Of a stretch of 64,000 nucleotides of DNA, positions 8,622-47,958 are shown piece by piece. This stretch comes from Chloranthus sessilifolius. Lineage: Eukaryota > Streptophyta > Magnoliopsida > Chloranthales > Chloranthaceae. Within the stretch, counting starts at the first letter, position 1, and each line of letters opens with the position of its first letter. A program made the translations under genes and the position numbers. The notes under the pieces are model-generated. The model was given only the letters and a program-made list of their open reading frames with translations. It had not been told where the DNA came from and did not search any database. Location: the NCBI GenBank assembly GCA_021018995.1, contig CM037588.1:38375000-38438999 (forward strand). The letters run 5' to 3'.

Positions 8622-8822
8622 GCCTAGTGTGTATAATATACACGCTAGGCCATTTATGAAGAAATTTATCCTAGCGTGTATAACATACACGCTAGGCCAT
8701 TTTCTAGAGGAATTTGGCCTTGCGTGTATAATACACATGTTGAGCCAAATGGGCCCACAACGGGCTCTGAACTTCTCACAGGCACTGTACATATGCCTAG
8801 CATGTATAATATACAGTTAGAC
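8622..8822. repeat. A-type palindrome cluster in LTR-A1 (four copies)
   Basis: Copies: 8622-8650 (arms GCCTAGYGTGTATA, central A, one mismatch), 8670-8696 (one mismatch), 8717-8745 (degenerate, core GTGTAT A ATACAC) and 8795-8822 (right arm decayed). The first two are separated by a spacer like CATTTATGAAGAAATTT, which recurs in the array upstream of antisense gene 1. The cluster ends about 260 bp before the TATA box. Confidence 0.92.
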
Positions 8823-9084
8823 TTAGCTATAGTAACTGTGAGATTTTGCCCGAATTTCACTTTGGGGGTTTGACTTGTTGACCATCCCCATACTTAGGGT
8901 GGGTTTTTTTAGGACTATTGCACCCCATTTACCCTATTTACAACCCACTAGTCATTTGAAACTCCAGCATTGAACCCATCCTCACACCTATCCATGACCT
9001 TGAAAAATACAAAATCCTTAGATTTAGGATTACCTAATTACTAATCCTATTGGCTCTTAAGTACCCCCTAATCTACTCATTTTT

Positions 9085-9092
9085 TATAAATA
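9085..9092 (+). promoter_or_regulatory. TATA box of LTR-A1
   Basis: TATAAATA, in the same context as in LTR-A2 (48169-48176) and the B LTRs (12035-12042, 30311-30318): a pyrimidine stretch before it and AGAGAGG or AGATAGG after it. Confidence 0.75.
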
Positions 9093-9789
9093 GATAGGTA
9101 CCCCCCTTACTAAAGGTTAGAAAATTTTCCAAGAGAGAGAAAGAGATTAAGGGATTCCCTTCTCCCCTTTAGGGCACCAAAATGCATATAAGTTCCAAAA
9201 CTTTAGTTCATCTTTTACATTCCATTACCTTCACAAACCTTTGAGATTTAGTTAGAACCATCCACTAGCCTTCTTCCTCTACCTCTTAGCTACCAAGCCT
9301 TAAAGGTTAGAACCCATCTTCGAACCCCTCAAGCCATCGGAAGCTCCTCAAGTACACCTACACAAAGGTCCACAGTCATGCTACAATGGCCTGAGAGCTC
9401 CGGCTCTCCCCTCTACTCCTCTACCTTCTTTTGTTTTCCTTTATCCAAGGATTCACGCCGTTATGCAGCCATTTTATTGGTATTTTCGGAGAACTTGATA
9501 GAGGAAGTGCTATTTTATTTTATGTTTTATTTTTACTTTTAGCCATAAGTAGAGACCGCTTCCAAGCGGGTTGATCGGGTGCCTAACACGTTCCTGATCG
9601 ATCACCGAAGCCCCTACCCAAGAGCCTTTGGCATTAGACCTATGAATCAGAGTCATATTTTTTGCACTTAAGTTCTTTTAATATTGATTTAGGCTTCCCG
9701 GGATACCAAAAGCTCCAGGTGGCGATTCTAAATTTATAAAAAAGAGTGCATCATCATGACAAACTCGCGAGAGCCCACAATCGCATAGA

Positions 9790-9807
9790 TGGCGACTCTG
9801 CTGGGGA
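9790..9807 (+). other. Primer-binding site of element A
   Basis: TGGCGACTCTGCTGGGGA, four bases after the LTR end. Ogre-type elements are known to use a tRNA-Arg primer. That this exact 18-mer matches a tRNA-Arg 3' end is from memory and unchecked. Confidence 0.8.
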
Positions 9808-9960
9808 ATAGGCAGTAGAGCTTCCCCTTGAAGTTTGGCCTTTTTGTCATTTTTATTTCATTTTCATTAACATTTATTTGTGGGTTTTTTTGCCTTTTTT
9901 CATACTCACCCCTACGATTCCGTCTATTTTTACTTATCCTTACTGTTCCGTCATTTACAC

Positions 9961-10095
9961 GCCTTAGCCGATTGGCGGGCCTATTTGAGCATTGTCTTTA
10001 CTTTCATTTATTTTTCGTCATCTACATGCCTTAGCCAATTGGCAAGCTTACTTGAGCATTTACATGCCTTAGCCATTTGGAGGGCCTACTTGAGC
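9961..10095. repeat. Three 30-bp repeats in the leader of A
   Basis: 9961-9990, 10028-10057 and 10066-10095 each read GCCTTAGCC...TTGAGC. The second contains a perfect GCCAATTGGC palindrome. Confidence 0.8.
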
Positions 10096-10613
10096 TCTTA
10101 CCTTTATTGCAATCATATACCATCAATGGACGCCAGCCTGTAGAGGCGGCACGGGATAATCACAGCCCATTTTTGAACCTAAGCAAACTCCCCTTTTAAA
10201 ACTGAATTTAAAATTGAACCTTAAAAGTGAACTAAGGGACTTAATTCAGTTTACGCTATGGTAGATTTTAAAAGGGTGAGAATTTAGGCAGCGATACAGA
10301 TGTCCCAGTTCTTAGTACGGCGGCAGCCCCTAGTGGTGATTATTTGGAAAAGTACCACCCCATCCAGTATCTGAGAAGGTGCTCGCGCTAGAGGTATATA
10401 GGGTGGGTGACCGATCCAGTTATGAAGCTTAAAACCCTTGGGGGAGAGCGTTAGTTGTCCCGAATAAACCTTGTATCCCTAGGTTCGGAGAGGAGGGACC
10501 CACTACAACAAAGAAAATTAGTCCCCGGAAGCACCGCTTCCCAAAATCCAAAAAATCAGACCAAATTCAGGCCTGCTGTTTGCCATCAAAATATATTATA
10601 TAAACTATTTTTA

Positions 10614-10736
10614 CCTAGCATGTATAATATACACACTAAGCCAAAAAACTTCAGAATTACCCTAGCGTGTATAATATACACGCTAAGCCAAAAATTCTCA
10701 GATTTTTCCTAGCGTGTATATAATACATACGCTAGG
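10614..10736. repeat. A-type palindrome cluster in the leader (three copies)
   Basis: 10614-10640 (CCTAGCATGTATA, A, right arm ending CACACTAAG), 10661-10687 (one mismatch) and 10708-10736 (two bases longer in the centre). The spacer ending CAGATTTTT before the third copy also precedes a copy at 42912, upstream of antisense gene 1. Element B would carry the equivalent region, but it is deleted there. Confidence 0.9.
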
Positions 10737-11151
10737 TATACTTCTGGCTGGGCAGCCCGAATCTGAGGCCTTTTTCACTTCCTCCGAGTTCCCTGCTAAG
10801 CGGTTTAGTGCCTCCAATAGATCCCACACATTCCGACACCCAATACACCCTCGCCAGTCAAAAGATGTCACCCTCTTATTGACTTTTTTCGAGGGATCGG
10901 GTTATCGCGTCGATCCTTGTGCTTGCACATAGAATAAAGGTTTTTCTTTGTTTCTTCTGAAGCACGTCGGGGTCCCGCCGTGGGAAATAGTTAGGGTGTG
11001 AACATCGCCTGAAATGAGAATTCCAAGCCCTCGGAACACAATGTAGAAAGGTTCATTTTCTTTATCCAAAAAACAAAATAAAAGAAAATTGGAAATTTGT
11101 TAAAAAATTCCAAATGAAAGATAGCTTGTGGTGTCGGCACAACGACATCGC

Positions 11152-11156
11152 CTTAC
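11152..11156. repeat. Target-site duplication of element B, left copy
   Basis: CTTAC lies directly before TGTTGACACCC, the start of LTR-B1. The identical pentamer is at 30998-31002 directly after LTR-B2. Confidence 0.9.
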
Positions 11157-11539
11157 TGTTGACACCCAAATTCGGCCTAAGGCCCGATCGGTCTGTACTC
11201 CGAAAGAAATGCATCCCTGTGCTTTTGATGGCACCCCTGAACCCTTGGGAATCTATCTAGACCTTTAGGAATCACCTAAAACCCATTAGATCCATTCCCC
11301 CAACCCTTAGAGATCACCCCTAAACCCTAGGATCCCTTCCCAGACTCAACTTAAACCCTTATAAGTATTTGATGGTAGGAGAGCTACAAATTTTTATACG
11401 GACCATTTCTAAGGATGAGCCACATACCTTTGGAAAGAGGACTTCTCCAGCTTTCCAACGAGCCGAAGATCACCCAATTTAGAGTTGTGGTTCAAAAGTT
11501 ATGGCCGTTTGAAGTTTCACATGAAATTATGACTTTTTG

Positions 11540-11762
11540 CTCAGGCGTATGTATTACATACGCCCAGCAAATTTGGCCCCAGTTTGGTCAGGTGTATGTA
11601 TTATATACGCTTGGCATTTTTGGGCCAAATTTGGCCGAGCGTATATAATACATACGCCCAGCATAGGAAGGCCCCACCATGGGCACCCATCTTCTCAGAT
11701 TCCCCCTGGTTTTCATGAATTTCACTGTGCATAAACTGGGTGTATGTAATATATACACCCAG
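11540..11762. repeat. B-type palindrome cluster in LTR-B1 (four copies)
   Basis: 11544-11564 is a perfect 21-bp palindrome (GGCGTATGTA, T, TACATACGCC). Others are 11589-11614, 11637-11662 and 11736-11762 (CTGGGTGTATGTA, A, reverse complement with one mismatch). The last ends 272 bp before the TATA box. Confidence 0.92.
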
Positions 11763-12034
11763 CTACAGTGTCTGTCATTAAATACACGAATTTCCTCCAT
11801 CTGGTTTGACACTTTGACAATCCCCTTGGTTGAGGTGGGTGTCTTAAGGTTGGTGGCACCCCCTTTGAGCTTATTGGCAACCCTTAAGTCACCCATGGTC
11901 TCACCCCATCATCTACCATTGAAATCAATTTCCCAAACCTCTAGGACCCTAAAAACGTAGAAAATCTTAGCTGGAGGATTACCTAATTGCTAAACCAATT
12001 AGCTCTTAAGTAACCCTCTAACCCACCTCTTCTC

Positions 12035-12042
12035 TATAAATA
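12035..12042 (+). promoter_or_regulatory. TATA box of LTR-B1
   Basis: TATAAATA followed by GAGAGG, identical in context to LTR-B2 at 30311-30318. Confidence 0.75.
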
Positions 12043-12545
12043 GAGAGGCCCCCCCCTTCCCCAAGGGGTTGAAAAATTAAAGGTTGATAGTTAAGCTTAA
12101 GAGAGAGAGCCCTAGTGAGAGAAAAATATGTGTTATTTTGCATTCTTCAACCAGAATTCCAGCATACTTAGTTTATCCTTTTTAACCCTTTTCAATCATT
12201 AGATCACCCCTTATTAGTCAAGCTTAGTCCCTAGCTTCATCCCACACTTCCTATCTACCGAATCCTAGCATTAGAACCTATTCCTCTACCGTTTAAGCCA
12301 TTTAAAGCCATCGGAAGCACACCGAAGTGAAGGTCTTCTACAGTGCAACAAGGGCCCGTGAGCTCCGGCTCACCCCCATCTTCCTCTACCTTAGTGTTTC
12401 CTCCGTCCAAGGATTCAAGCCATTACGTCGCCGAAATTTCGGCTTGGCTCAAAGCTTGATAGGACCGTATTGCCTTCGGGGAAAGGGGAAGCTCCGCCCA
12501 TTTATTTTTATTTTTGGCCATAGATAGAGACCGCTACATGCGGGT

Positions 12546-13054
12546 GAAAGGGAACCCTACTCATCAAAGCCCGTTCACAAATCCCTTACCCCCTCACCAG
12601 TACCCTTCATTCACCTATACCCCTTATGCCCCCATCCCGCCTCCAACGGAAAATTTAATCCACCCCATTCCTCAAAACCACGCCTACAACATCCTGCCAC
12701 ATAAACCACACCCCACCACCCCCAAAATGTGGACCCAACTCAGCACATCACTCATCCACAAACCACTCATCCATTCACTCCTCCCCATCCCTTACAAGCT
12801 TTGTGGCCCCACCAGGTCATCCAACCCATCACCCCCCAGGTTCAAATAGCAAACCTCGCCCCTCACCAGTATAATGACCAATAGTACGAGGACGACGAGA
12901 TCCGCAATATTGGAGGAGCTGCCAGTTTCGGCCCACCCAGGCCCATCATCGTCACACCCGGGGCCGAACAAAATCGAGGGAGGCCATTCTGACCTCAAAA
13001 GAATCAGAGCAGCTGAAAGAACAGATAAACAGAATACAAAAGTAGCTGACGAAG
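12546..13054 (+). pseudogene. gag: Remnant of proline-rich N-terminal gag region, element B
   Basis: Translation is rich in Pro, His, Thr and Tyr, with no fold I recognise, and precedes the gag core. It corresponds to the proline-rich region of A at 31156-32565 but lacks the 24-bp minisatellite found there. The left edge is the deletion junction with LTR-B1. Frames are broken, with a stop at about 12848 and a shift before 13055. Confidence 0.55.
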
Positions 13055-14060: not shown

Positions 14061-15170
14061 ACTAGAACATCCATCAGGCCCCTTTGCCACCGCATCCAGA
14101 AGGCCTCAGGCCTAACATCCATTGCGTAGAAGAGGAAGAGTTTGACCCCTCGGATTACATCAGTAATCAAGAAGAGTTTTCATTTCCTAGGTTGAACAAG
14201 GGTGAACCAATTGTGGGGGTAATCGAGCCGTTGTATTTAGCCGATTACTTCCCCACCTCGGCTTACCAAGAAGAGCCCCTAGATTTAGGGCAGCATTTTT
14301 CCACTCCCGCTCCTGCCTATCAAATCCAAACGGGCACAGCTCCACTGCAATCATACGCATTTCAGCCCCACTCCCAATTTACCCCACAGTACACACCGCC
14401 TCCCAATCACCCCATCCCATACACTATCCCACCGCCAGCCACCCCATATACCTCTCCGTCACGCCCAAATCACCCCACTCCATACATAAATCCACCCTCC
14501 CCATACTACCCCACCCCATACACACCCCCAAATCTCTCCACCCAATACACCACTCTGCCATCCCCAAATTATCCTATCCCATACACACCCCTAAATCCCA
14601 CCATCCAGCATACTACCCCGCCATCCCCAAATCATCTCGTTCAATACACAACTCAACCATCCCCAAATCACTCCTCCCCGTGCACAACTCCATCATCCCT
14701 GATTTACCTCATTTCATCCACGAACCCATCATCACCCCACCATGCCGCCCCAGTTACCAACCCTTCATATCAGTACCCCCCCTGCTCCATCCGCTACCCT
14801 GTCATACCCCTATCACTACACTCCACCCGCACCTCCGACGTTTCCTAGTCACCCCGTCCCAGTCACACCCCCACCATCCCTTCGCCATTTCGCCCCCAAT
14901 CCAACTCCACCCCCACCCAAACAAACAAACCCTCACCCACTCCCCTTATCACCCGCTCCTAATCACCACTGGTCTTACCACGCCCTGATAATGCCTGCAC
15001 AAACCCACTCTGCACCCTCAAATCCAATCCTGCTAATTCCCGCCAATACCACTTAGCCCCCTATTGGAGTCAACCTGGTTGGGCCCAAGAATCTGACATA
15101 CCCAACCCAATCCGCCCTAGAATCACCATGCACTCCCTTCCTCATCCCGAAACCCGCCTATGACCCGCAT
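14061..15170 (+). pseudogene. Proline-rich gag-protease linker with repeats, element B
   Basis: An acidic start (EEEEFDPSDYI) shared with A is followed by a YFPTSAYQEEPLDLG block and then a long Pro/Tyr/Thr-rich stretch (about 14390-14800) of degenerate PSPNHPxPYTTP units. The repeats form a minisatellite of about 36-45 bp that A lacks. The frame shifts near 14800-14850. This is probably a flexible spacer of the polyprotein. Confidence 0.6.
14390..14800. repeat. Minisatellite coding Pro/Tyr/Thr repeats in element B
   Basis: Degenerate tandem units based on CCATCCCCAAATCACCCC and CCATACACCACC-like words occur about ten times. The coding frame is mostly open, so length change was tolerated while the element was active. 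Confidence 0.65.
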
Positions 15171-21212: not shown

Positions 21213-21517
21213 CAAGAAAAGAGAGATTAGGAGAGGATCTGTTCCGGCCCGCCTTTTAGTCTGGACCCCTTGAGCCCCTTCCCCCTTCTTTTGTTGGGCC
21301 GCTCATGTTAAAATTTGATCGGATCCTAATCAAGTATGTCGTCTCTACCGCATCATCTGACACATGACCAAAGGTAAGGCCAGAAGACCAATCAATCTCG
21401 GGGAAGCTGACCTATCCATGTTTAAAAAGAAGCACCGAAAACTCCTAAACGGGGTTCGACCATGCTCAAAAAGAGGACCCACCAATTGGCCTTGAAAATA
21501 CCGACATCACAAAAAGG

Positions 21518-21720
21518 AGAAAATTTCAAAAATGATAATGGATTTTCCTTTTCCATAAAAAGCCTCACACTGTGAGAGAGAAAATTTCAAAAAAGATAAT
21601 GGATTTTTCTTTCCCATAAAAAGCCTCACCCTGTGTAGGAGAAAAATTTGAAAAGAAAAAAATAATAATAGATTTTCCTTTTCCATAAAAAAATAAAAAA
21701 AACCTTACATTGAAAGACTT
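21518..21720. repeat. Three 60-bp repeats in element B
   Basis: Copies start at about 21518, 21578 and 21639 with GAGAAAATTTC, then GATAATGGATTTTCC and CATAAAAAGCCTCAC. They correspond to the 96-bp repeat array of A at 40455-40945. Confidence 0.8.
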
Positions 21721-21965: not shown

Positions 21966-23412
21966 AGGTCAGGGGCAAGAACCACTCTTCAAGGCACTGA
22001 TCTCTGCAAGAAGAGAGTCCTCACGGGCATTTTGATCGGTCAACCACCTACCATGAAGACTCTTTTGCCGCCTCCGTGAAGCGTCAGCTACACTGCGAGG
22101 CTCAGTCAAAAGCCCAGTCAACCAAAGAACCTCACTCTCGGCCGTAGCGGCTCTCACCTCTGCCATCTCGACTCTGGCCCTCTCCATCCCTAAAGCCTCA
22201 GTCAAAGCCAACTTCTCTATAGAAAGAGACTCAATTCTAGTCCGGAGCATCGTTTCCTTGTATGGCCAGGGTCCCGTCTCTATCACATCTACCGAAACCG
22301 GGTTAGGGGCCGGTAAGCTCTCAGATGCCAGACAAACCTCGTAATCAGAAGAGAGGACACCCCCCTGAACCAAGCTACACATGTGCACCGATTGGCGGGT
22401 CTCCCAGAGGGCTGTTATGCGATGTAAGTCACTGAGAGAACCCTAAGGGAATATTAGGGAACACAAGGGCGGCCTCACAATGCATGGCACGTGTTGGGTA
22501 TATCCGAATTGACGAAGCACCCGAGATGGGAAATAATAGGTACTACCAGTCAACCCCAAAAGTGTGATACCCTCACAATCCCGAGAGCGGACAATCGGAA
22601 AGGTGCCATCCAACCAAGGAAGTTGCTAGATCAACTTCGCATCAGATAGCCATAGGCTCAGTTCCTCGATGCTCCCATGGGACAGCCTTGAGCAGTGGGT
22701 CAGAAAGCCCCGAGCCACGTCCCTCTTGCCAAGCAGAATCTTAGCACAAGCCCCATGATAGCCAAATGCTCTCCTAGCCAAATCTGAATGAGGAGTGGAC
22801 TCCCGCGAAGAATCTCAACCCGGCCCAAGGCCGAGGCATCCAGACTAGGTGTACCAGTGAATGGCCTCCCTCCAATTCGGTCAACACATCGCATAACCCG
22901 AGGGAAAATGTCTCGCCCCCAGTAAAGAAGAGAACTTCCGATAACAAATAAAGGGTAAAGGCCTTCACATTGAAAGGATCCTGGACAGGCAACTTTCGGA
23001 GACTCGAGTCACCAAAAAGTTCTCTCAGGAATTTCACCGAGCACCTAGTGGGCCCGCCGGCGAAGCCCTTCTCATACCCACCCTTGTTTAAACCAAGAAC
23101 CGCGTAGACCGCCTTTGGATACCCCAGTTTAGGCACCACTTTGGCAAGCCCCCGATGCATCCTCAAGCCGGTAATAGAGGCTAGCTCCTCGAAGGTTGGG
23201 GTGAGCTCCCTGGACCCGAATATAAAGACATGGGCCCTATGGTCCCATGATGCCAAGGCCGCCTGTATGAGGTCGGGAAACAAAGGGACAGCAAGGAGAG
23301 AGGAAAGGCGGGATAACCCGAGGCGATCTAGAACAACGAGCTCGCCCTCAGCCAAGCTACCACCCCACTTTTGCAAAAAACTGGGCCCCGAGTCCAAACA
23401 GGGACGACCCAT
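21966..23412 (-). pseudogene. Antisense gene 1: PMD-like (DUF7745-like) protein with helical tail, element B
   Basis: Read right to left, the first part has GPSFLQKWGG, HVFIFGSRELTPTFEELA, GGPTRCSVKFLRELFGD and FNVKAFTLYLL, then GSTYYFPSRVLRQFGYTQH. This is the order seen in plant mobile-domain/DUF7745 proteins. The last part (LRTRIESLSIEKLALTEALG, ERARVEMAEVRAATAESEV) looks like a coiled coil. Element A carries the homologue at 41192-42717. The coding start is uncertain and may lie further right. There are two frameshifts (about 22850 and 22710), a stop before the tail, and a stop at 21966-21968. Its function in the element is unknown. Confidence 0.78.
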
Positions 23413-24200
23413 CCCCCGTATGAGAATTTGGGCTGAGAAGCAGGTCCATAGACCTACAAAGATGTTCTATGTAAAGCTCAATCAATGTAGGGCGATGGAC
23501 TCACTTATCAAAGAAAAAAGGGAAGAGAGAGAAAAGAAAGAAAAATGAGGGGTAAAAAGGCAAAGCCCGGGTGAATAGTAAGGCAAAGAGGGCTGGGCGC
23601 GGATTATAAGGAACCCGTCGAGCCCAGTTATACGGGGCGTGTATACTATATACACCAGAGCAAAAATTGAACAAACTATGGCTGGCATAAATATTATATA
23701 CGCCCAGGTAAAAGCTGAGCATTTTCAGCTTGGCGTATATATTATATACGCCCAGGCAAATTTTCAAAAAAAATTTCCTGGCGTATGTAATATATACGCC
23801 CACTTGAAAAAGCAAGGAAGTGTGGCTTCCCTCACATCGGGTCATGCATTTTTTTCCTTCCCCAAGGGAGGGATGGGTTTCGCTTAGCCTACTTTTTCTC
23901 CCGGGGCAGCCCGCAGTCGGGCATGCTCACACACCCATGGGAAACCCTCGGATGACGCGGTATCCATGGATCATATGAGGGTAATCATGCGCGAGCTCAA
24001 CCCCATCATTGGAGGGGCTCTGGCCCGCTTCGCCAAGAAAAAAAAACCATAAAGGCAGAGAGATAAACAAGCAGAGCGTTCATATAAACCATAAAAGTCA
24101 TAAAACCATCCAAAAAAATCAATTAAAAGAAAATTATTACATATCCCCCAATATTTCAAAATCTAAACTGTTTCACTGTTTCAAATTTTTAGAAAATGAA
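23413..24200. other. Region between the two antisense genes of element B
   Basis: It holds the presumed upstream region of antisense gene 1, including the palindrome cluster 23635-23802, and the 3' flank of antisense gene 2. No coding sequence was recognised. On the minus strand a TTATAAT stretch lies near 23605-23612, just downstream of the cluster, as a weak TATA candidate. Confidence 0.5.
23635..23802. repeat. B-type palindrome cluster upstream of antisense gene 1, element B (four copies)
   Basis: 23635-23657 (GGCGTGTATA core, intermediate between A and B types), 23682-23707, 23729-23755 (CTTGGCGTATATA, T, reverse complement; one mismatch) and 23778-23802 (one mismatch). The nearest copy is about 220 bp upstream of the ATG at 23412 on the minus strand. 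Confidence 0.92.
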
Positions 24201-26559
24201 CTAATCCTGGGCAGCCCCCTTTGACTTCTTCCGGCGTCGGGTCACACTTTGAAAGGTACGGGTCTCCACCCGAGTCCATGCCTGAGAGATGCGGCCAAGC
24301 AGAGAGCGCGACTCCTTTTCACGAGCACGCTGCATAAGCACATGAAGGGCCATCAGTTAGAAAAAGAAGCAGAAAGTAAATATGAAGATAACTAGATACA
24401 GCCAATATTCACTCACCACCTCAACCTCCCTAAGACCGACAATATTGCAGTAATATTCGGCTTAGTTTACGGCCGACTCATAATCCTGCAGCAAAAAGAT
24501 AAAGAGAGGTATCAGTCACACAGGCCATCGACATGATCTAAGAAAACGGAAGAGCAAAGTAATGAGGGAGAGATTACCCCAGGGATCAGCACATGGGGTG
24601 GAACCCGAATAGCTTTAGTGGATATGCATGCCTTCTCAGCCACATCGGCGCACATACGTGATAGAAAGGCATCATCCAAGCGCTTAAAAGTCCCTTGGAA
24701 CTCAGTTGGCGAACTGCCAGAAGTGCCAGCATCGAAAGGGTCAGAAGGTCCAGCACCGATAGCCTCATCACGAACAGCTGCCTCACCCCCCTCATCTGAA
24801 TCATCATCCTGCCCAAACTACAGAGAGAAACAGTCTTTCTTCAAATAGCAGGGCAATTACGGTAATCATATGGAAGGCTGCTAATAGAAAGAGGAAAGAA
24901 CATTACTTGAGATCGTGGACCGCCAAAAGCCAAAAAGTTGGCGCCAGGCATGAATCGGGGCAGCAGAGAATGATAGGGCAGAGACTCATACCACATCTGA
25001 TATCCCTCAGGAAAGAGAAGGTCATCAATGGGGACCCAGTGGTGGAGAAAGTGAGTAGTGAGCATTTCGGTAGAACCTTCGGGAGCCAATACATCAGCCT
25101 GAGGAGCTTGAGGCAGAGCAAAAAGAGGTTGATATTGATGAATCACCCTCTCTCCTAGGTAATAGGCCCTACCCCAGGACCGATATAAGAAAATAATGCG
25201 TCGATCTAACAAAAGGTGAGAAGGGCCCACTGCAGCCAGGTTTCAGAAGGGGGATCCGATGTAGGGATCAAGGATGACCTGCTCAACAAAGGGAGGAGGG
25301 ATTTATACATTTGGTCAGAACCCGCAACATAAAAGAGCTATCAAATTTGCGAAGAGAGAAATTGTTATACCTGCTCAAGGATCAGCACTTCAAACTGAGA
25401 GCTCAGCCCTAACTCCAAGTGCTTTATACCTACGTCTCAGCGGCAGTTTGCATGCCAATTGCTCATAAGGGGGAACGTTGGAATCTCCGAGAGAAGCAGA
25501 GGGCGACCAGGTTGGAAGTGCAGATACCCCCATACTTGAGAAAGCAAGCAGATAAAAATAGATATGCCAAAAAAGAGGGGGGAACAAATTGAGACCAAAG
25601 GATAAATTACCTCAACTGCGGGCCAGAAGCCCACAACGGAGCTGGAGTCCCTAAGAACGGCTCGCACCAAGCTAGACATGAGCATCGCGTAGCTAGCACC
25701 TCCCCAATCAAACTGATGTACAGTGTCCCAGTTCACCATAAGACTGAGAAGAGACAATGAGACCCGCCCTCTGCTGGTATTTGAAAGGAGAGTCTTGCCA
25801 AGGAGGAACAACAGAGAAATACGGCCCAGCATCAGTGCACGCTCTGGCTCGAGATAGATGGCCGCATCAGGCTGGCCCAGATCCACTAACTCATGGGGCT
25901 CAAACAAACCAACCAGCCAAGATAACTTGACTTCGGAACCATGAACGTTCCCGGAGGTTGGGTAGCCCCCTATCAGCCGAGTCACCTCCTCCATATCAGG
26001 CGTGCGGGCAGGTATCACTGGCACCCCTCCAATATGAACCCCAGTAATCATGGACCAGTTCGCGGGTGTGAGGGTCATCTCAGCCATGGCCATGTGAAAC
26101 GTCATGGTCTCAGGGCGGAAGCACTCTATTAGGGCCTTCAGATAGGCCGTGTCAGCCGTCATAGCGGGGCAGGAGATGAAATCCCCAAAACTAGCTTGGG
26201 CAAGCAAGTCCTTCACCACCTGGGGGAGATAAAGTATGAGGCGTTGGAGGTCAAACCAGCCACCCTGGAATATAATGTGTGGCAAAGGCTGCAGACAAAA
26301 GGCATCGGTCAAATAGGAGGAAAGTGGTATAATGAAGGCATCAAAGGAAAAGAAAAAGGGGTCATCTGTTTACCCGGCCAGCGATCCCAAAGTTGGAAAT
26401 ATGGGTATGCTGACATTAAAGGAGGCCAGTACGAGCGGCTTCACCTTGCATTTCATACCAAGGTTGGGAGGAGTGCTGTGAAACAATGAATTACTCCCCA
26501 TGAGGACCATAGGCCATCTCAGGCCCCTCCTGTGGATCCTGCCCTTCGTCGCCAGACAT
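24201..26559 (-). pseudogene. Antisense gene 2: plant mobile domain (PMD) protein, seven exons, element B
   Basis: Exons on the minus strand: 26374-26559, 25611-26264, 25371-25534, 24907-25278, 24578-24817, 24417-24485, 24201-24329. Each junction fits GT-AG, and lengths are 186, 654, 164 (one base lost), 372, 240, 69 and 129, so all introns are phase 0. The product would be about 604 residues. Exon 2 carries the PMD: LAQASFGDFISCPAM, ETMTFHMAMAEMTLTP, SMITGVHIGG, ISLLFLLGKTLLSNTSRGRV, then VWGYLHFQPGRPLLL in exon 3. Exon 7 ends with a basic RRRKKSKGAAQD that could be a nuclear signal. Five in-frame stops show decay. PMD proteins are known both as host silencing factors (MAIL1/MAIN) and as retroelement cargo. 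Confidence 0.88.
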
Positions 26560-26576
26560 CTGAAAATATGGAACAC

Positions 26577-27350
26577 ATCGGTATAAGAAAGGGTTGCTAA
26601 AAAAAAAATATTAGGGAGAATAACAAAAAAAAATGTACTAATCCATCAAAAAAAATATGAATGAAGAATGAATGGTGACGAATAATGAGGAAAATGAAAA
26701 AGGAGGGGAGCATAGGCCTAAGGAATCACATATACCTAAAAAAAAAAAGGAAGAACATCAAGCATTTCAAACCAAAAAAAAAAAGAGAGAGAAAGAGAAA
26801 AGTAACAAAAAAATGCAAAAAAAAAAATAATAATATATGTGCACTAATCCATCATAAAAAAAAAAACAACAAAACAAACAAAAACAACAAACAAATAAGA
26901 ATGAAGATGTTGAACGGTGATGATATATAATAATAATATGATGAATGATGAATGACGGTATAATAGAAAAGGGGAAAAAGGATGATGACGAATGAAAAAA
27001 TGAAGAAAGGAAAGAGAAGGGAATGAGCACAAGGAATCACATATACTTGAGAAAAAATGCATCAATTTGTCACCACAAAAGGAGGAACATCAAGCATTAC
27101 CAAAATTCAAAAAGGAGATGAAAGAGGGGTTGATGATTACCTTCAAAGGGAGAAGAAATAGATTCAAAAACCGGCAGAGGATGAACGTTTTTGATCCACA
27201 CACTAACCCTGGTGATAGAACTCAAGCAAAACTAAATGCCAAAAACCTAATGGGCTGTCCCGGACTTGAGAAAGAAGGAAGGAAGAAGATAGAGTTTGAA
27301 AGAGGGGGTCCCTTTTGTGCTCGAGCTCGGGTAGTTTTAAAACAACCAAA
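26577..27350. other. A-rich low-complexity stretch upstream of antisense gene 2, element B
   Basis: Poly(A), GAA and AAC-rich DNA. The apparent Phe/Ser/Tyr-rich ORFs on the minus strand are products of this composition. On the minus strand this is the 5' side of antisense gene 2. Confidence 0.6.
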
Positions 27351-27353
27351 TTT

Positions 27354-27432
27354 GGTCAGGCATATATAATATATACGCCCGACCATTTTTTGCTACCGAT
27401 TTGCCGGGCGTATATATTATATACGCTTGACC
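27354..27432. repeat. B-type palindrome pair upstream of antisense gene 2, element B
   Basis: 27354-27384: 31 bp, arms GGTCAGGCATATATA and TATATACGCCCGACC around A, two mismatches. 27403-27432: arms based on CCGGGCGTATATA around T. They lie about 800 bp upstream of the ATG at 26559, the same spacing as in element A. Confidence 0.9.
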
Positions 27433-29415: not shown

Positions 29416-29428
29416 AAAGAGGGGCATC
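29416..29428 (+). other. Polypurine tract of element B
   Basis: AAAGAGGGGCATC directly before TGTAGACACCC. Element A has the identical tract before LTR-A2 (47455-47467). Confidence 0.85.
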
Positions 29429-29813
29429 TGTAGACACCCAAATTCGGCCCAAGGCCCGATCGGTCTGTACTCCGGGAGAAATGCACCCCTGTGCTTCCGA
29501 TGGCACCCCTGAATCGTTGGGAATCTATCCAAACCTTTAGGAATCACCTAAAACCCATTAGAGCCATTCCCCCAACCCTTAGAGATCACCCCTAAACCCT
29601 AGGATCCCTTCCCAGACACGACTTAAACCCTTCTGAGCATTTGATGGGAGGAGAGCTACAAATATTTATACAAACCATTGCTGAGGATGAGTTACATACC
29701 GTTGAAAAGAGGACTTCTCCATCATTCCAAGGAGCCAACGATCACCCAATTTGGAGTTGTGGTTCAAAAGTTATGGCCATTTGACGTTTGACATGAAATC
29801 ATGACTTTTTGCT

Positions 29814-30033
29814 CAGGCGTATGTATTACATACTCCCAGCAAATTTGGCCCCAATTTGGTCAGGCGTATGTATTATATACGCCTGGCATTTTTGGGCCAA
29901 ATTTGGCCAGGCATATATAATACATACGCCCAGCATAGGAAGGCCCCACCATGGGCACCCATCTTCTCAGATTCCCCTGGTGTTCATGAATTTCACTGTG
30001 CATAAACTGGGCGTATGTAATATATACGCCCAG
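29814..30033. repeat. B-type palindrome cluster in LTR-B2 (four copies)
   Basis: 29814-29839, 29861-29885 (25 bp, one mismatch), 29907-29933 and 30007-30033 (CTGGGCGTATGTA, A, reverse complement; one mismatch). They are orthologous one-for-one with the LTR-B1 copies. Several sites that differ do so inside the palindromes. Confidence 0.92.
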
Positions 30034-30310
30034 CTTAGCTACCATGTCTGTCATTAAATGATCGAATTTCCTTCATCTAGTTTGACCCTTTGACCATCCC
30101 CTTGGTTGAGGTGGGTATCTTAAGGTTGGTTGCACCCCCTTTGAGCTTATTGGCAACCCTTAAGTCACCCATGGTCTCACCTCATCATCTACCATTGAAA
30201 TCAGTTTCCCAAACCTCTAGGACCCTAAAAACCTAGAAAACCTTAGATGGAGGATTACCTAATTGCTAAATCAATTAGCACTTAAGTAACCCTCTAACCC
30301 ACCTCTTCTC

Positions 30311-30318
30311 TATAAATA
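30311..30318 (+). promoter_or_regulatory. TATA box of LTR-B2
   Basis: TATAAATA, 278 bp after the last palindrome of the cluster. Confidence 0.75.
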
Positions 30319-30997
30319 GAGAGGTCCCCCTCTTCCCCAAGGGGTTGAAAAATTAAGGTTGAGAGTTAAGCTTAAGAGAGAGAGCCCTAGTGAGAGAAAA
30401 ATATGTGTTACTTTGCATTCTTCAGCCAGAATTCCAGCATGCTTAGTTCATCCTTTTCAACCCTTTTCAACCATTAGATCACCCCTTATTAGTCATGATT
30501 AGTCCCTAGCTTCATCCCACACTTCCTATCTACCGAATCCTAGCATTAGAACCTATTCCTCTGCCGTTTAAGCCATTTAAAGCCATCGGAAGCACGTCGA
30601 AGCGAAGGTCTTCTATGGTGCAACAAGGGCCCGTGAGCTCCGGCTCACCCCTCTCTTCCTCTACCTTCTTGGTGTTTCCCCTTTGCCCGAATGCAATACG
30701 GTCCTATCAAGCTTTGAGCCAAATTTCTCCACCCATTTATTTTTATTTTGGCCATAGATAGAGATCGCTACATGCGGGTTGATCAGGTGCCAAAACCCTT
30801 CTCGATCGATAACCGAAGCCCCTACCCTAGATCCTTTGGCAAAGACCGGTAAATCAGAGTCATATTTAGCACTTCGGTGCTCAAAGTATTGATTTAAAGG
30901 TTTCCTGGGTTACCAAAAGCTCCGGGTGGCGACTCTACATTTTATTCCACCGCGTGCGCATCGCCGCGGCGGGTCCGAGAGGATGCATGCTCACACA

Positions 30998-40153: not shown

Positions 40154-40454
40154 GTTCAAATGAAAGAGAGGAAATTAATTACTCTGTGGGTTTTGATTCC
40201 GAGCTCTAGTCTTCATTTGGGCCGCTCATTTTAGTTCAAATCGGATCTTGATCAAAGATATTTTTTAAACTGCACCGTCAAATGTATGACCCGAGGTAAG
40301 GATAAAAGGGTCGACTCAATCCAAGGGGATGGATGTTCCGACCTTGGTGAAAGTTGGTGAACCTCACTGACCGCATGAACGGGTTCGGCTATGCTCAGAA
40401 TGGGACCCGTGACTTTGTCTTGTTGTTGAGGCATCAAACAAAGGAAAGGGGAGA

Positions 40455-40945
40455 GGACCACATTTGTAAAAGATAATAAATTTTCCTTTTCCATTTTCAG
40501 GCTGGCACTATGCGCACCCCACCTCGTGATGATCGGTTTAAAGACCAGTGTTTTCCTTTACGGAGAAAGGAGAGGACCACGTTTATAAAAGATAATAAAT
40601 TTCCCTTTCCCATTTTTAGGCCGACACTATGCACACCCCACCTCAAGATGATCGGTTTGATGACCGGAAGGACCACATTTGAAAAAGATAATAAATTTTC
40701 CTTTCCCATTTTCAAGCCGGCACTATGCACACCACACCTCGAGATGATCAATTTGATGACCGGAAGGACTATATTTGTAAAAGATAATAAATTCCCTTTC
40801 CCATTTTCAGGCCGACACTGTGCACACCACACCTCGAGATGATCAGTTTGATGACTGGAAGGACCACATTTGTAAAAGATAATAAATTTTCCTTTCCCAT
40901 TTTTATCCTCGTACTGTGTGCACCACATCCCAAAAGGATGATCAG
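40455..40945. repeat. Five-copy tandem repeat of about 96 bp, element A
   Basis: Starts at 40455, 40574, 40671, 40767 and 40862 with GACCACATTTGTAAAAGATA, then TTTCCATTTTCAGGC and CTATGC..CACCTCGAGATGATC. The apparent ORFs on both strands are repeat artefacts. Confidence 0.9.
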
Positions 40946-41191
40946 CGTAATGCCCAGTTTCTCCCACTTACAAAAGCAAAGAAAGATAGAATTTGTGTAA
41001 GGTAATAGATTTCCCTTTTTCCCATTTACACATCTGTACCATGCTTACACCACATCTAAAAAAAAAAATAATCGGTGTGATGCCTTGCGTACCCCTTTAC
41101 AAAATTGAAAGGCCAAAAAAAAAAAAACATGAAGAAAATATATATACCCAAAAAATCTAACAGGGGGTCCCCCTCCCTATGGTGATTTGAT

Positions 41192-42717
41192 CTATGCCAA
41201 AGGTATGTGCAGGCCTAGGTCAATGACACAACGCTTCAAATCATGAATCTCAGCTCGTAAGGCATCCTCATGAACATCTCGATCCGTCATCTAGCGGCCA
41301 TGAAGCCTCCTATACCACTTCCGAGAAGCATCAGTAGCACCAAGTGCATCATTCAGGGATCCTTCCAGACGAAGGACCTCACACACTGCAAAACCAGCTC
41401 TTGCTTCTGCGACATCTGTTCTAACCTTGTGTTTCTCTAAATATTCGTGCAAGGCCCGTTTATCATCTACCAGCAGCTTAATCTGAGCCAAAAGTGCCAA
41501 CTCCATCCTCGGCCCAGGCCCCTCTGCACAACTGCTCCCTGCCTGATCCAAGCAACAGACAGAAGGATTCTTAGATAACAGTAATGACTCATACCCTGGA
41601 GAACTTGCTCCAAGCCGCACATATGCGTCGACTGACGCTTCTCCCAAAGAGCGGCTATCCTATCCAAGTCCCTAGAGGACCCCGAGGAAAGATCAATCCG
41701 CACAGGGGAGGTCTCTTCGGCCAGGGCACCTGCTGAGTATAACCAAACTGGTGCAACACCCGAGAGGGAAAAAAATGGTGCTACCAGCCAAGCCAAGAAG
41801 GGTGATGCCCTCATGATCTCTAGATTGAACTACTGGGAAGGTCCTGTCCAACCATGGAAGCCTCCACACTAGCTCAACCTTAGCTAGCCAACGTTTCAAC
41901 TCGCACATATTCCCTCGTGGCAACTCATGGCATCGGCCTAAAAAGTAGCGAGCCGCCTCTCCACGAACCACATAAAATCTAGGCACAAGCCCCAAAATGG
42001 CAAGATGCTCCCTAAGCCAAAGCTGGAGTAGAACGGGGAATTCTCAAAGGCACTCAACCTTTCCCAAAGAAAAGGCATCGAGACAGCGGTAAAGCTCCAC
42101 CAATACCATATGCACCATAGAGCTACCCTCCTCAAGTTCCGTCTGCATATCGCAAAGTGCAAGAGAGAAGCTCTCCCCCCTGTGTAGAAAAGGACCTCTA
42201 AGAGAAGGCAAAGAGTGAAAGCTTTTACATTATGGATATTTCTAAATGATAGTTTTTGCAAGCTTTCGTCACCAAAAACCTCTCTGAAGAATTTCATCGA
42301 ACACCTAGTGGGGCCACTAACAAAGGTTTTCTCATAATCAGCTTTCTCCAAACCCAAAGTCGTGTGGATGGCTTTAGCATAACCTGGCTTCAGCACTGTC
42401 CTGAGAAGACCTCTATGCAGCTTCAAACACGATAGGTTGGAGAGTTCTTCAAGAGTGGGAGTTAGCTCACGGTTCCTAAAGTAGAAGACATGGGTATCCA
42501 CGTCCCAATGAGCAGCCGCCGTATAAAGGAAATCCCAAAGCAAAGGAATATCCAGGAAAGATGAGAGATGGGCCATCTCGAGTGTATCCAAACCCGCAAG
42601 CTCACTTTCGTTCAGATTGTCGAGCCATTTCTTTTAAAAACTGGGCCCTGTGCCTAAGGAAGTATAAAGGTCCTGGACCTCCCAAAAGAGGCAGGGTCGG
42701 AAAGTGGGTCCATGGTC
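41192..42717 (-). pseudogene. Antisense gene 1: PMD-like (DUF7745-like) protein with helical tail, element A
   Basis: Homologue of 21966-23412. Minus-strand translation shows AHLSSFLDIPLLWDFL, HVFYFRNRELTPTLEELS, GGPTRCSMKFFREVFGD (first Gly read as Ser here) and FNVKAFTLCLL-like blocks, then GITLLGLAGSTIFFPSRVLH and a helix-rich tail (ALLAQIKLLVDDKRALHEYL). It ends HIPLA at 41192, longer than the B copy, which stops early. Several frame changes occur. The start is uncertain; a palindrome cluster (42868-43029) lies about 150 bp upstream of the first plausible ATG. Confidence 0.76.
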
Positions 42718-42867
42718 ATACAAAGATCTTTTGAGAAATCATAATTCATTGTAGGATGATGGATCCTCCCTCGAGAAAGAGAAAAGAAAAAAATGACAGC
42801 AAAAATCCAAAATCCAACTAGAAATGATGAAAAAGGGGACACACTCCACACTACTCAAAAAATACAT

Positions 42868-43029
42868 AGCGTGTGTAATACACACGCTTGTTTAAAATCT
42901 CCCAGATTTTTCCTAGCGTGTATATTATACACGCTAAGCCAAATAGTCCCTAGAAAAAGCGTGTATAATATACACGCTAGGCCATTTCTGAAGAAATTTT
43001 GCCTAGCGTGTATATTACACACGCTAGGC
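42868..43029. repeat. A-type palindrome cluster upstream of antisense gene 1, element A (four copies)
   Basis: 42868-42888 (perfect 21 bp: AGCGTGTGTA, A, TACACACGCT), 42912-42938 (one mismatch), 42959-42977 (perfect 19 bp) and 43001-43029 (29 bp, one mismatch). The spacer CATTTCTGAAGAAATTTT (42983-43000) is also found between palindromes of LTR-A1. Confidence 0.93.
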
Positions 43030-43469: not shown

Positions 43470-45771
43470 TCACTCCAAATCAGCGCCCTTTGTCCTCTTT
43501 CGCCGGTGCGAGGTACTCTGATAGGTCCGCACATTCCCCATCCGTGACCACACCTAGGACAATCTACTGAGCAATGAATGCGACTCCTTTTCACGAGCAC
43601 GCTGCAAGCATCACACTAAAAGGTCAGTTAAGGTCGATTAAAAAATAGGGCAGCAAAGCAACAGGCAGAACCAACTAGTGTTATACTTACCACTTCCAAT
43701 TCCTGAAGGCCAACAATATTGCGGTAGTATTCCACCTGATTGACAGCCGACTCATAATCCTGCAAGGGGAAGATAGATAGAGAGGTCAGTTGCATGGGAA
43801 ATGATACAAAGACAGGCATATCTTCAAAATAATAGGCATAAAAGAAAACTCACCCCCGGAACCAACTCGGGAGGAGGGACCCTAATTTCCCCAACTGATA
43901 TACGAGCCCGCTCTGCCACATCAGCAGACAGGCCCCAGAGGAGCGCATCGTCAAAATTCCTAAAGGTCCCTTGGGTCTCCACAGTCGAAGCCCCTGAGGC
44001 CCCTGCACTAGAAGGGTCTGAAGGACCAACACCTCACACCTCTGCAAGACCCGCCTCTGCCAAGTCCTCATCAGACTCCTCCTCTCCCTCAAGCTAAAAA
44101 CAGAGAGCAGAAACCCAGTTAGTATGGAAAAAGCAAGATAAACAGTATTGCATATATGGGAGAAAGAAAATAGGAAGAATACTTGAGATTGTGGGCCTCC
44201 GAATGCCAAAAAGTTGGCACCTAGCACAAAGCGTGGGAAGAGTGATTGGTACGGGAGAGACTCATACCACATATGATACCCACCATGCTCAAAGAGACCA
44301 TCAACTAGGAGCTCATGGCGATGGAGTCCATCTGCAAGCTCCTCAATCATACCCTCCGGTGACATAACATCCCCGGGAGGACCCTGCGGCACCGCGACGT
44401 AGTCCCAATACTGATGCACCACCCTCTCCCCCAAGAAATACTCTCTGACCTAGGATCCATAAAAGAAGATGATGTGATGATCGATAAACAGTCGGGACTG
44501 GCCCACGGTAGCACGAACCCAAAGGGGAGTCGACATAGGGATCAAAAGTCACCTGCTATGAAAAGAAGGGCCCTATTAGTCAAAGCAACGAGAGATAGAG
44601 AGAGAGAAGGACAGGGGATGCCTGCTTTGGTATCATCAGGTCAAACTAGGACCTCAGACCCAGCTCCAGATGTGTCATCCCTAGGTCCCTGCAATGATTC
44701 TTATGTCATCTGCTCATGAGGGGGTATGTGAACTCATTTAAGAAGAGGAGGGGGGCGGCCCAACTGGAAATGTAAATATCCCCAAATCTGAAAGGACGAA
44801 TAAATAGGAAAATGAAAGAAGGTCACCTCGATCACAGGCTAGAAGCCGAGAACAAAGGCCACATCCCCAACTGAGGCCCTGACCAAACTGGCCATCAACA
44901 CGACATATCTTGCTCCCCCCAGTCGAAACGATGCATGTTCTCCCAGTTTCCCATCAGACTGAGGAGGGATAGTGAGATCTGACCACCATTAGTATTGGTA
45001 AGAATGGTCTTAACCAACAGGAAGAGGAGCGAGATATGGGAGAGCATCAGTGCATGCTCGATCTCAATGACGATATCCATATCCGGCTGGTCCGGATCCA
45101 CCAACTTGTCAATATCAAATTGATCGACTAGCTAGGAAGCTTGACCTCGGAGTTGGTCATATCTCAGGAGGTGGGGTAATCCTCGATCAACTCGATCACC
45201 TCCACATGGTCCAGTATGTGAGGAGGAACAACAGGTATCCCTCCTATCCTGATCTCGGTAATCATAGACCATTCCACTTGGGTGATGGTCATCTCGGCCA
45301 TGGACATATGGAAGGTCATCGTCTCAGGCCGGAACCACTCCACCAGGGCCTTCACGTATGCCATATCCTCCATCATGGTCGGGCATGACAAGAAGTCCCC
45401 AAAGCTGGCTTGGGCCAGAAAGAACCTAACAACCTGGGGAAGATAGCTGTAGAGGTGCTGGAGGTCGAACCAACCTCTGCGAAACATGAGTGGGTGCAAG
45501 GGCTGCATCAAAAGAATAAGGAATGTCATATTCAAAAGCAAAGATGCTCAAGTAGAAAATAATAGCCAAACGATACATCTTTTGCCTTACTGGCTATACC
45601 AAAGTTGTAGATATTGGTGTACTGCTGATGTAGTAACCCACAGTGTGCGACTTCACCCTGCATTTCCCACCAGTCGTGAGAGGAGCACTGCACCTGAATA
45701 AGGCGCTCCCCTCTGGAACCATAAGTCACATCGGGACCATCCTCATGACCAAGGTCCTCTTCACTCGACAT
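43470..45771 (-). pseudogene. Antisense gene 2: plant mobile domain (PMD) protein, element A
   Basis: Homologue of 24201-26559 with the same exon plan. Exon 1 is 45591-45771 (MSSEEDLGHEDG..NFGIA, donor GTAAGG). The PMD exon is about 44827-45476 (ETMTFHMSMAEMTITQ, ISLLFLLVKTILTNT). Next comes WGYLHFQ..PPL from 44787. A following exon reads GERVVHQYWDYVAVPQ..FVLGANFLAFGG (44190-44434), then TQGTFRNFDDALLWGLSADV (43855-44095), DYESAVNQVEYYRNIVGLQ (about 43690-43765), and a basic end RRKRTKGADLE with stop at 43470. The third donor reads GC instead of GT. Several stops and frame changes are present. Confidence 0.84.
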
Positions 45772-46563
45772 CCTAAAAGGGGGAACATGCAGTAAGTATA
45801 TAAAAATCATTATCATCAATCAAAATCAGAATCAAATCTTCAAGGGCATTGTTAAAAATATTAGATCAAAGGAAGGTGAGTATGCCTCTCTCATGCTAGA
45901 ATTTTTTTCCAAAAAAGGCACATCCAAAAAATCATCAAGTTATACACCCTTCCAAAAAAAAAAAAATCTTTATAAAAATCCTCTCAAATTTTTTATTAAA
46001 AAACCCCACAATGCGTACACACTGAAATTATGGTTGGGGAGACTTTCAAACATTCAAAATCAAATCACTTTTTTCCATCATTTATTTTAAAAAATTAAGA
46101 TCACACTTGTGTAAAAAGGAAAATCAAAATTTTCGAACAAAAACCCATCCATTTTCCAACAAATTCCATAAAAAAAAATCAAAATACATTTCAAACCAAA
46201 ATTAATACGAATGAATGCAACTGTCATGAAATAGATCACATATGTAGAGAAAATCATTTAGATAGATATACATACAAAGATTATCATCTCTATCCCAAAA
46301 AAAACCTAACCACATTGGAAATAAATCAAGATAAACCAAAGAAAATAGGGTTTAAAATGATTACCTTGAACGAGAAATGAACCCTAGAACCTACGGGAGA
46401 AAGCGTGATTAGTCGGCGTGATGAACAATGGCACGATGTCGAGCTTCAAATCGAATCAATGGAGCACAGGAGAGCCTTCCGGTTTGGTTTAGGAGAGAGG
46501 GGGAAAGAAATATTTGAAAAACACCCTCTCTGCTAGGGCCCAACCGATTTAAGGCAGCTTTTT
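45772..46563. other. A/T-rich upstream region of antisense gene 2, element A
   Basis: Low-complexity A-rich sequence without domain signal, equivalent to 26577-27350 of B. It separates the gene from its palindrome pair. Confidence 0.6.
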
Positions 46564-46639
46564 GCCTAGCGTGTATAATATACACGCTAGGCTTAAATTC
46601 GCCAGATTTGGCCTAGCGTGTATAATATACATGCTAGGC
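46564..46639. repeat. A-type palindrome pair upstream of antisense gene 2, element A
   Basis: 46564-46592 is a perfect 29-bp palindrome: arm GCCTAGCGTGTATA, central A, exact reverse complement. It is the best copy in the window. 46611-46639 has one mismatch. Confidence 0.95.
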
Positions 46640-47454
46640 TTAAAATCTTCCCTTACACATGTGTGTGTTCCTTTCAAGTACATATGTATGTGCAACCCTA
46701 AAAATATAAAAAAATAGAAAAAAGGGAGACAGTAGAACATGTCCCATTAAGTGTGCCGATTTCCATTCGATCCGCTTGGGGATTGTGCTAAAATAAAATA
46801 TTTAAGGACAATGAGCCCGCTCAAAGTCTCGAACAAACATGAAAAACATAAACAATATATATATATATGCACAAAATAACAAAAATATGTAGCTCATCGA
46901 ACCAGTAACACTCTCCCAAAAAGCGTTGTGACATCAATTCACTCAGCTCAAGTAGTTGTGATAAATTATTGTCGAGATTGATGAGTTCACTCAGACACCT
47001 TGAACCCTACCTCACGTAGGGGCACCCGTGACCAATCAAATGGGGCAATCAATGTCTCATGTAATTGGGCACAAACTGTGGATCATGCGTCTTTGTATCA
47101 TGCCTGTTTTTATGTATGGGTCGATCACCCTCCTGCTCGTGGGGATATTTTATTCAGAATGGAACTCAAGCATCACACCTCAGCAAATCATATCGAGGAG
47201 CAAACGTGTTTCCTAGCATATTGGGCTTTCGCAACTTGCATCATCTTGGTCATGCTCATTAATGTCGCTAAGTGCTTGGGGACCGATAGCCTTGAGGAAC
47301 GAACATTTTTTCTGACATGTAGGGCTTCTGTATACTCACTATGTTACCATCTTGATGTTTGAGGTTCACTTTGAATACGGTAGACCCGTTAGCATGCCTT
47401 GGGCCTCTTCGGATGTCTTTTTCTTTGGCATTCGATCATTAGTGATCAGATACC
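46640..47454 (+). other. 3' non-coding region of element A before the PPT
   Basis: Similar to 28860-29415 of B (GGGGCACCCGTGACCAAT block, TGTTTGAG...CCTTGGGCCTC block). Contains the conserved stem-loop 47434-47447 (GATCA, TTAG, TGATC). Confidence 0.65.
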
Positions 47455-47467
47455 AAAGAGGGGCATC
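47455..47467 (+). other. Polypurine tract of element A
   Basis: AAAGAGGGGCATC directly before the LTR start TGTAGACACCC, identical to that of B. Confidence 0.85.
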
Positions 47468-47802
47468 TGTAGACACCCAAATTTGGCCTAAGGCCCGATC
47501 GAAACATACTTTGATAAAGGCGCACCCCCAAGCTTCCAATGGCACTTCCTGACCGTTTAAGAAACCGATCCCCAACCCTTAAGAATCAACCATAAAACCC
47601 CTCCTAAACCTGTTTCAAACCCTCCCGGGAAATGGTTGAAGAGAGGTGTGACAAAGATTAATGGGACCGGTGCTGGGACTACATCATGCACCATTGGAAA
47701 GAAGAGGTTCCTAGCTTTCCAACAAGCCAAGAATTTCCCCATTTGAGTCATACACCGAAAGTTATGGCGATCCAAAGTTTCGAGCTGAGGTGAGGGCATT
47801 TT

Positions 47803-47958
47803 GCCTAGCGTGTATAATATACACAATAGGCCATTTTCTGGAGGAATTTTGCCTAGCGTGTGTAATACACATGCTAAGCCAAATGGGCCCCACAGCGGGC
47901 TCTAAACTTCTCACAGGCACTATACATATGCCTAGCATGTATAATATACACGCTAGGC
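47803..47958. repeat. A-type palindrome cluster in LTR-A2 (three copies)
   Basis: 47803-47831, 47851-47879 and 47930-47958 (29 bp, one mismatch). The unit corresponding to 8670-8696 of LTR-A1 is absent, with one flanking spacer. Confidence 0.92.

Follow-up and report, generated by a model that had tools for sequence, protein, structure and literature searches.

Phased arrays of family-specific palindromes in nested giant retrotransposons of Chloranthus sessilifolius

Comparison of long terminal repeats (LTRs) across 64 kb of Chloranthus sessilifolius DNA (assembly GCA_021018995.1, contig CM037588.1, positions 38,375,000 to 38,438,999; this whole stretch of 64,000 nucleotides is called the window) revealed two giant Ty3/gypsy-type retrotransposons, with element B sitting inside element A. 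Altogether they carry 30 palindromes grouped in nine arrays, 16 of an A type and 14 of a B type. We interpret the palindromes as phased arrays of putative dyad-symmetric DNA-binding sites, with one site type per family that recurs in the U3 region of the LTRs, within the 5′ leader and ahead of two antisense genes. Judged from the sequence, they are probably dimer-type binding sites that provide one family-specific cis module for all promoters of an element. A single DNA-binding dimer would then address every promoter of an element and of its close relatives and not those of other families. From family to family the site has changed alike in its two arms and throughout the arrays, and the scaffold was kept. 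For the antisense plant mobile domain (PMD) and TRP28 genes found in Ty3/gypsy elements of plants, and for the tandem repeats adjoining them, no function is known so far; a dyad code common to LTRs and antisense genes would give genes and repeats alike a testable role.

Palindrome arrays in elements A and B

An earlier note on this DNA had reported the 16 A-type and 14 B-type sites, and all of them were confirmed at their places. They are far above chance: odd-centred dyads in which 12 or more of the 14 arm pairs match number 17, whereas 50 Markov simulations averaged 0.22 and never gave more than one. Sixteen of these strong dyads are A or B sites, and the other is a site of a third type, C, at position 209. 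The B-type 21-mer matches the window 14 times (0.00 expected), and the A-type half-site with up to three mismatches matches 34 times (2.07 expected), some of these matches being arms of B sites. Spacing within the arrays is regular, since 16 of 21 intervals measure 47 or 48 bp; the remainder are 43, 78, 79, 100 and 101 bp. In four degraded sites (8731, 8809, 23646 and 23694) no more than 6 to 8 of the 14 arm pairs remain; sequence and spacing assign them to the arrays. A half-site weight matrix classed 29 of the 30 sites cleanly, which is a consistency check only, because the matrices were derived from these same sites. The exception is a hybrid within an A array (10708-10736, centred at 10722) that combines an A-like left arm with a B-like right core.

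The arrays are listed with window coordinates, type and place, and the centres of their sites:

195..315, C-type sites in a third LTR, centres 209 and 305 (305 being a poorer copy)
8622..8823, A type, U3 of the 5′ LTR of A, centres 8636, 8683, 8731, 8809 (intervals 47, 48, 78), TATAAA 261 bp downstream
10613..10737, A type, 5′ leader of A, centres 10627, 10674, 10722, about 0.85-0.94 kb inside the LTR
11540..11763, B type, U3 of the 5′ LTR of B, centres 11554, 11601, 11648, 11749
23632..23804, B type, upstream of gene 1 of B, centres 23646, 23694, 23742, 23790 (48 bp each)
27355..27431, B type, upstream of gene 2 of B, centres 27369, 27417
29812..30034, B type, U3 of the 3′ LTR of B, centres 29826, 29873, 29920, 30020, TATAAA 276 bp downstream
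42864..43029, A type, upstream of gene 1 of A, centres 42878, 42925, 42968, 43015
46564..46639, A type, upstream of gene 2 of A, centres 46578, 46625
47803..47958, A type, U3 of the 3′ LTR of A, centres 47817, 47865, 47944, TATAAA 210 bp downstream

In all four LTRs of A and B, TATAAA follows 210-276 bp downstream of the last site of the U3 array. The C-type site, which the earlier note had overlooked, reads GGCGCAACT-CAT-AGTTGCGCC on the minus strand; the LTR that carries it lies on this strand, starts near 737 and extends off the window. One 47-bp unit of the 5′ LTR of A is absent from its 3′ LTR (8622-8697 compared with 47803-47831). The array at gene 2 of B is self-complementary across 131 bp (27328-27458), with GTTTTAAAAC-like inverted repeats on either side, and might act in two directions.

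Site types and their matching across the source genome

Four site types were distinguished, with the half-sites AGCGTGTATA (A), GGCGTGTATA (D), GGCGTATATA (B) and GGCGCAACTA (C). Type D was found in the source genome and has no representative in the window. Between families the middle and outer parts of the half-site vary, and GC(G) and the central TA stay. The constant scaffold consists of the GC core at half-site positions 7-9, the TA beside the central W, and the phasing of 47-48 bp. In an alignment of five U3 copies, the distal sites of the three types A, B and C coincide and are framed by conserved flanks. Outside the palindromes, blastn found no match at 1e-5 between the DNA flanking the gene-side arrays in A and that in B, which suggests that the arrays outlast their surroundings.

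Symmetric changes across the arms, named in the earlier note as a possible check, were found between families. Two half-site positions are diagnostic. Position 5 reads G/G in 15 of the 16 A sites, compared with A/A in 13 of the 14 B sites; at position 10, 13 A sites have A/A and 11 B sites have G/G. Over the 30 sites, arm covariation was 0.278 compared with 0.190 after shuffling (none of 500 shuffles was as high), and 41 cells were changed on both sides, compared with 20.4. Three of five covariation measures lay beyond all 500 shuffles. A larger sample was available for the distal U3 site, with copies picked by their flanks only (96 used among 100 listed of 520; four of other length were dropped). 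Both arms were of one type in 84 of these 96 copies (59 B, 16 A and 9 D), and approximately 47 would be expected from the margins by hand arithmetic.

Exact matches were counted in the source genome (2.17 Gb) with reversed patterns as control. The A-type 29-mer occurs 342 times, the B-type 21-mer 8,531 times and the C-type 21-mer 9,336 times; the reversed patterns gave no genome match in any case. Among the first 50 exact sites listed for each type, 47 B and 41 C sites have another listed site within 25 kb, and 12 of 19 intervals below 200 bp for B and four of nine for C equal 47 or 48 bp. Some exact B sites lie 1,864-1,954 bp from LTR sites in other copies (coordinates only, among the sites listed), which suggests that the B family may also have a leader array in other copies. 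In one locus (L037), a C-type leader array lies about 0.8-0.9 kb inward from an LTR that is also of type C, a place comparable to that of the A leader array. As specificity controls only, the A-type 21-mer was searched in GTDB genome contigs and the B-type 21-mer in IMG/VR, both without plants by design, and neither search gave a match. With four site types and thousands of copies in one genome, the palindromes offer a natural set for tests of binding and coevolution.

The earlier note had claimed that the palindromes are specific to element families, and this was borne out in the window and in the sampled genome. We compared 16 loci cut from the genome searches (L001-L012, L033-L036) with the three window LTRs. 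In all 15 loci with a window reference the palindrome type predicted the LTR correctly, the margins being small for C; the 16th is of type D and nearest to the A LTR. LTR array and gene-side array also agree in type in six of six elements, namely the window copies of A and B and four elements from the genome. In L002, A sites are found in the LTR (346/458) and on the gene side (1515/1562). L019 has D sites in the LTR (8327/8374), at gene 1 (1453-1594) and at gene 2 (6986-7080), both gene-side arrays in steps of 47, and L026 has D sites plus sites ambiguous between A and D at both LTR and gene side. In L038, C sites lie in the LTR (252-434) and at gene 2 (2572-2668), and a further array (6481-6575) precedes the point, outside the extracted stretch, at which gene 1 would be expected to start. 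For L019 and L026 only the LTR type guided the choice, for L002 a gene-side match. Among 20 stretches upstream of flank-picked LTRs (14 D, 4 A, 2 B), PMD genes were found in two only, L019 and L026.

Additional half-site variants, GGCGCATGTA and GGCACAAGTA, occur at steps of about 47 bp in L020:2498-4425, away from the anchored LTR, and perhaps represent more element families.

Candidate binding molecules and alternative explanations

A dimeric reader is suggested by dyad sites that recur at a fixed spacing at each promoter of a family. We infer that a protein dimer binds the palindromes and that the sites act on transcription or silencing. Dimer sites and hairpins had both been proposed by the earlier note. 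The arrays could instead matter as RNA hairpins, either through a function within the element transcript or by giving rise to small RNAs that let the host recognise and silence the element, as has been proposed for Sireviruses; this appears unlikely to us. All nine array stretches fold as RNA far better than shuffled sequences (z −5.5 to −12.2), and in maize, small RNAs are drawn to Sirevirus LTRs that carry palindrome clusters, according to the available part of PMC10760457. Folding is, however, unavoidable for any palindrome array. The stems (13 bp with 3-base loops) are short, the gene-side arrays probably lie upstream of the transcription starts, and hairpins do not predict the constant 47-bp spacing. 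Arm mismatches in the window sites and in the 96 listed distal sites, with position 3 left out, gave no clear sign of an RNA wobble bias: G:T is not clearly favoured over A:C, with 19 compared with 31 in the window and 53 compared with 42 (hand sums) at the distal sites. The exception is the fixed position 3 of the B distal sites, where the G:T of 63 copies is one inherited state. Transcripts could fold, but the balance favours a DNA dyad over a hairpin.

The arrays would have no function at all if a palindromic 47-bp unit had been spread by slippage and gene conversion and homogenised within families. We consider such a neutral by-product quite improbable, although several observations agree with it. 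Tandem units are gained and lost, as the missing unit in the 3′ LTR of A illustrates, and family-specific tandem repeats with no known function are common in Retand elements (PMC11963269, available in part). In addition, the sites decay at the neutral rate after insertion. The earlier note had held that independent arm decay at this rate among young copies would speak against its reading, and in part this is what the LTR pairs show: the two LTRs of A differ at 9 of 81 positions inside sites and 162 of 1300 outside, those of B at 8 of 108 inside and 77 of 1136 outside, and purifying selection on the sites after insertion was not found in these pairs. The window copies of A and B are dead and decaying at the neutral rate, and for this reason the decay is no argument against a function in active ancestors. 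Slippage, moreover, neither preserves dyad symmetry through change nor puts matching arrays upstream of separate genes, and the dyads stayed while spacer and flanking DNA diverged.

Returning to a protein dimer as the reader, candidates for it are encoded beside the arrays. Antisense genes lie between pol and the 3′ LTR in both elements:

22774..23466, minus strand, gene 1 of B (PMD-like), PF10536 with E 0.0017 and 18.1 bits (cut-off 34.9), ATG near 23449 by eye
25437..26369, minus strand, gene 2 of B, PMD exon, PF10536 with E 1.1e-21 and 77.8 bits (cut-off 34.9)
41938..42633, minus strand, gene 1 of A (PMD-like/DUF7745), below the cut-off, ATG near 42713 by eye
44882..45514, minus strand, gene 2 of A, PMD exon region, broken, 69% DNA identity to 25666-26301

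The proteins of A and B share 56% identity over 153 amino acids for gene 1 and 64% over an open stretch of 112 amino acids for gene 2. The gene 1 arrays are located about 183 bp (B) and 151 bp (A) upstream of the ATGs, which were placed by eye. Those of gene 2 precede putative 5′ splice sites, likewise placed by eye: in B by about 215 bp (splice site at 27140, belonging to a first exon that would be noncoding) and in A by about 200 bp (splice site at 46364). TRP28 (PF04195) was not matched at E up to 0.1 among the five antisense open reading frames (ORFs) scanned, PMD being the domain seen instead; broken copies may conceal TRP28. For the gene 2 PMD protein, no homologue was found in the protein collection at E up to 0.001 with a single or a two-row alignment query, and no solved structure at E up to 1. 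A first look in the source genome yielded 13,034 candidates for this protein, of which 150 were scored.

A joint switch of the site at all places is simplest to explain by a reader that moves together with the element. The reader may therefore be encoded by the element itself, with the PMD product as the best candidate for an activator or anti-silencing factor, a step for which our confidence is lower than for the dimer. The full version of this proposal is that antisense PMD proteins dimerise on the palindromes of their own family and activate or unsilence the LTR and their own promoters, with specificities that change together, as an independently arisen counterpart of the VANDAL/VANC system. 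We put it forward tentatively, as possible rather than likely. VANC anti-silencing proteins recognise family-specific target arrays of VANDAL transposons (PMC5735166, PMC10398659, both available in part). In both cases tandem target motifs lie in noncoding transposon DNA and differ between related families. In VANDALs the element itself encodes the reader; here the candidate reader is PMD. VANDALs are, however, DNA transposons, and the VANC21 motif is the 9-base YAGTATTAY in non-palindromic arrays of one orientation. With a self-encoded reader, selfish self-recognition of the VANDAL style would also apply to the transposon class that is most abundant in plants.

Alternatively, the sites might serve host transcription or silencing factors, and the family differences would track host paralogues and not an element protein. 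We regard this as a serious possibility, somewhat short of an even chance. LTR enhancer repeats for host factors are usual in plant retrotransposons (PMC2829016, in part), and host PMD proteins influence genes whose promoters contain a certain motif. The host PMD proteins MAIN and MAIL1 are tied to the 'DOWN' motif of promoters, and direct recognition is one of the proposed options (available parts of PMC7156037 and PMC9899485). They resemble the present case as PMD proteins linked to a short promoter motif, but the motif, CATGCAGTTT in MORC1, is unlike the palindromes described here and its binding is unproven. At least four related symmetric types at the same four places would moreover demand a matching set of host factors, and a reader travelling with the element would be the better fit to this four-type pattern. 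A host factor as reader would show how families partition host control.

Several observations weigh against a family-specific code that is read by one dimer. Two of the covariation measures were within the shuffles (8 pairs compared with 6.5, reached in 94 of 500; 20 types compared with 18.4, in 109 of 500). Shared descent and homogenisation inflate both the copy counts and the shuffle test, and few independent switches underlie the symmetric differences between families. A-like and D-like sites mix within single LTRs, which makes the specificity of A versus D doubtful. Given this mixing and the hybrid at 10722, the partition by element stands for most sites and is not exact as the earlier note had it. 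A hybrid 21-mer of B and D has 213 exact copies in the genome. The B distal U3 sites (11735-11763 and 30006-30034 in the window, and 63 of the 96 listed) are asymmetric at half-site position 3, with G on the left and A on the right, and counting this position brings the distal tally to 116 G:T compared with 54. L038 was chosen for its clustered C sites and counts for less. The gene 1 proteins of both elements score about 18 bits for PF10536, which is under the Pfam cut-off.

Related elements and the setting of A and B

A close parallel to the arrays comes from Sireviruses (Ty1/copia), in which palindromic repeated motifs are located in the LTR upstream of TATA and 5′ of ENV (PMC2829016, in part). 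Many dyad motif copies in the LTR and beside an internal gene, with a shared core that varies by element and a role thought to be regulatory, are common to both systems, and in A and B palindromic repeats are likewise found upstream of TATA in the LTR and near an internal gene. The Sirevirus core is CGG-CCG, whereas here it is GCG..TA-W-TA..CGC in elements with gypsy domain order. The 47-48 bp phasing, the additional arrays of the 5′ leader and the two antisense genes, the type matching between places and the symmetric family changes also distinguish the present elements. The earlier note knew of no such arrays in Tat/Ogre elements. Nor did our literature search, with most subscription papers outside its coverage, turn up a description of palindrome arrays in elements of the Tat/Ogre group or in those that carry PMD; the Sirevirus arrays in the LTR and near an internal gene are, however, a described case.

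Retand elements have antisense TRP28 ORFs, for which regulation has been proposed, and family-specific tandem repeats between pol and the 3′ LTR; the TRP28 antisense ORF is present in 97% of clusters (Vicient 2025, PMC11963269). A long region between pol and 3′ LTR with antisense ORFs and family-specific tandem repeats is shared with A and B, but the latter carry PMD rather than TRP28, and promoter arrays are not described for Retand in the available part of that account, where palindromes are named in the reference list only.

The elements are bounded by the following LTRs:

8284..9780, plus strand, 5′ LTR of A, end approximate, 81% identity to 47466-48853 over about 1.5 kb
11155..12546, plus strand, 5′ LTR of B, nested in A, 92% identity to 29428-30679
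29428..30997, plus strand, 3′ LTR of B, end approximate
47466..48853, plus strand, 3′ LTR of A, pairs with 8284-9780

A stretch resembling a primer binding site (PBS), which in the Tat lineage would be one for tRNA-Arg, was seen near 9790, by eye only. The 5′ LTR of B stops at 12546 and runs into DNA resembling a gag leader, and its LTR end, PBS and leader are apparently missing, also by eye. Domain searches placed RT_RNaseH_2 (18000-18431) before the integrase core (19413-19775) in B, and RVT_1 (36637-37149) before RT_RNaseH (37244-37444) in A. This corresponds to the gypsy order of reverse transcriptase, RNase H and then integrase. A second RNase H domain, RVT_3, was detected besides RT_RNaseH at 18432-18815 (1.2e-6) and 37761-38048 (4.8e-9), and such a domain is given as a trait of Tat elements (PMC9289625, in part). 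Because of the gypsy domain order and the two RNase H-type domains, the domain content of A and B appears consistent with the Tat lineage (Tat/Ogre/Retand). Targeting of insertions to palindromes (PMC6911290, in part) was considered and set aside, as B is not located in an A-type palindrome.

Other repeats accompany the elements. Proline-rich-looking CCCAAGCCC and C-rich tandem repeats are found near gag in both (31817-32123 in A, 14399-14700 in B), 96-bp tandem repeats directly downstream of pol in A (40383-40945), and a 61-bp repeat array at 21515-21654 in B. At 63213-63799 a minus-strand LTR piece with 84% identity to part of the B LTR ends beside other pol-like DNA. A 147-bp unit is tandemly duplicated at 4067-4364, the copies being 91% alike.

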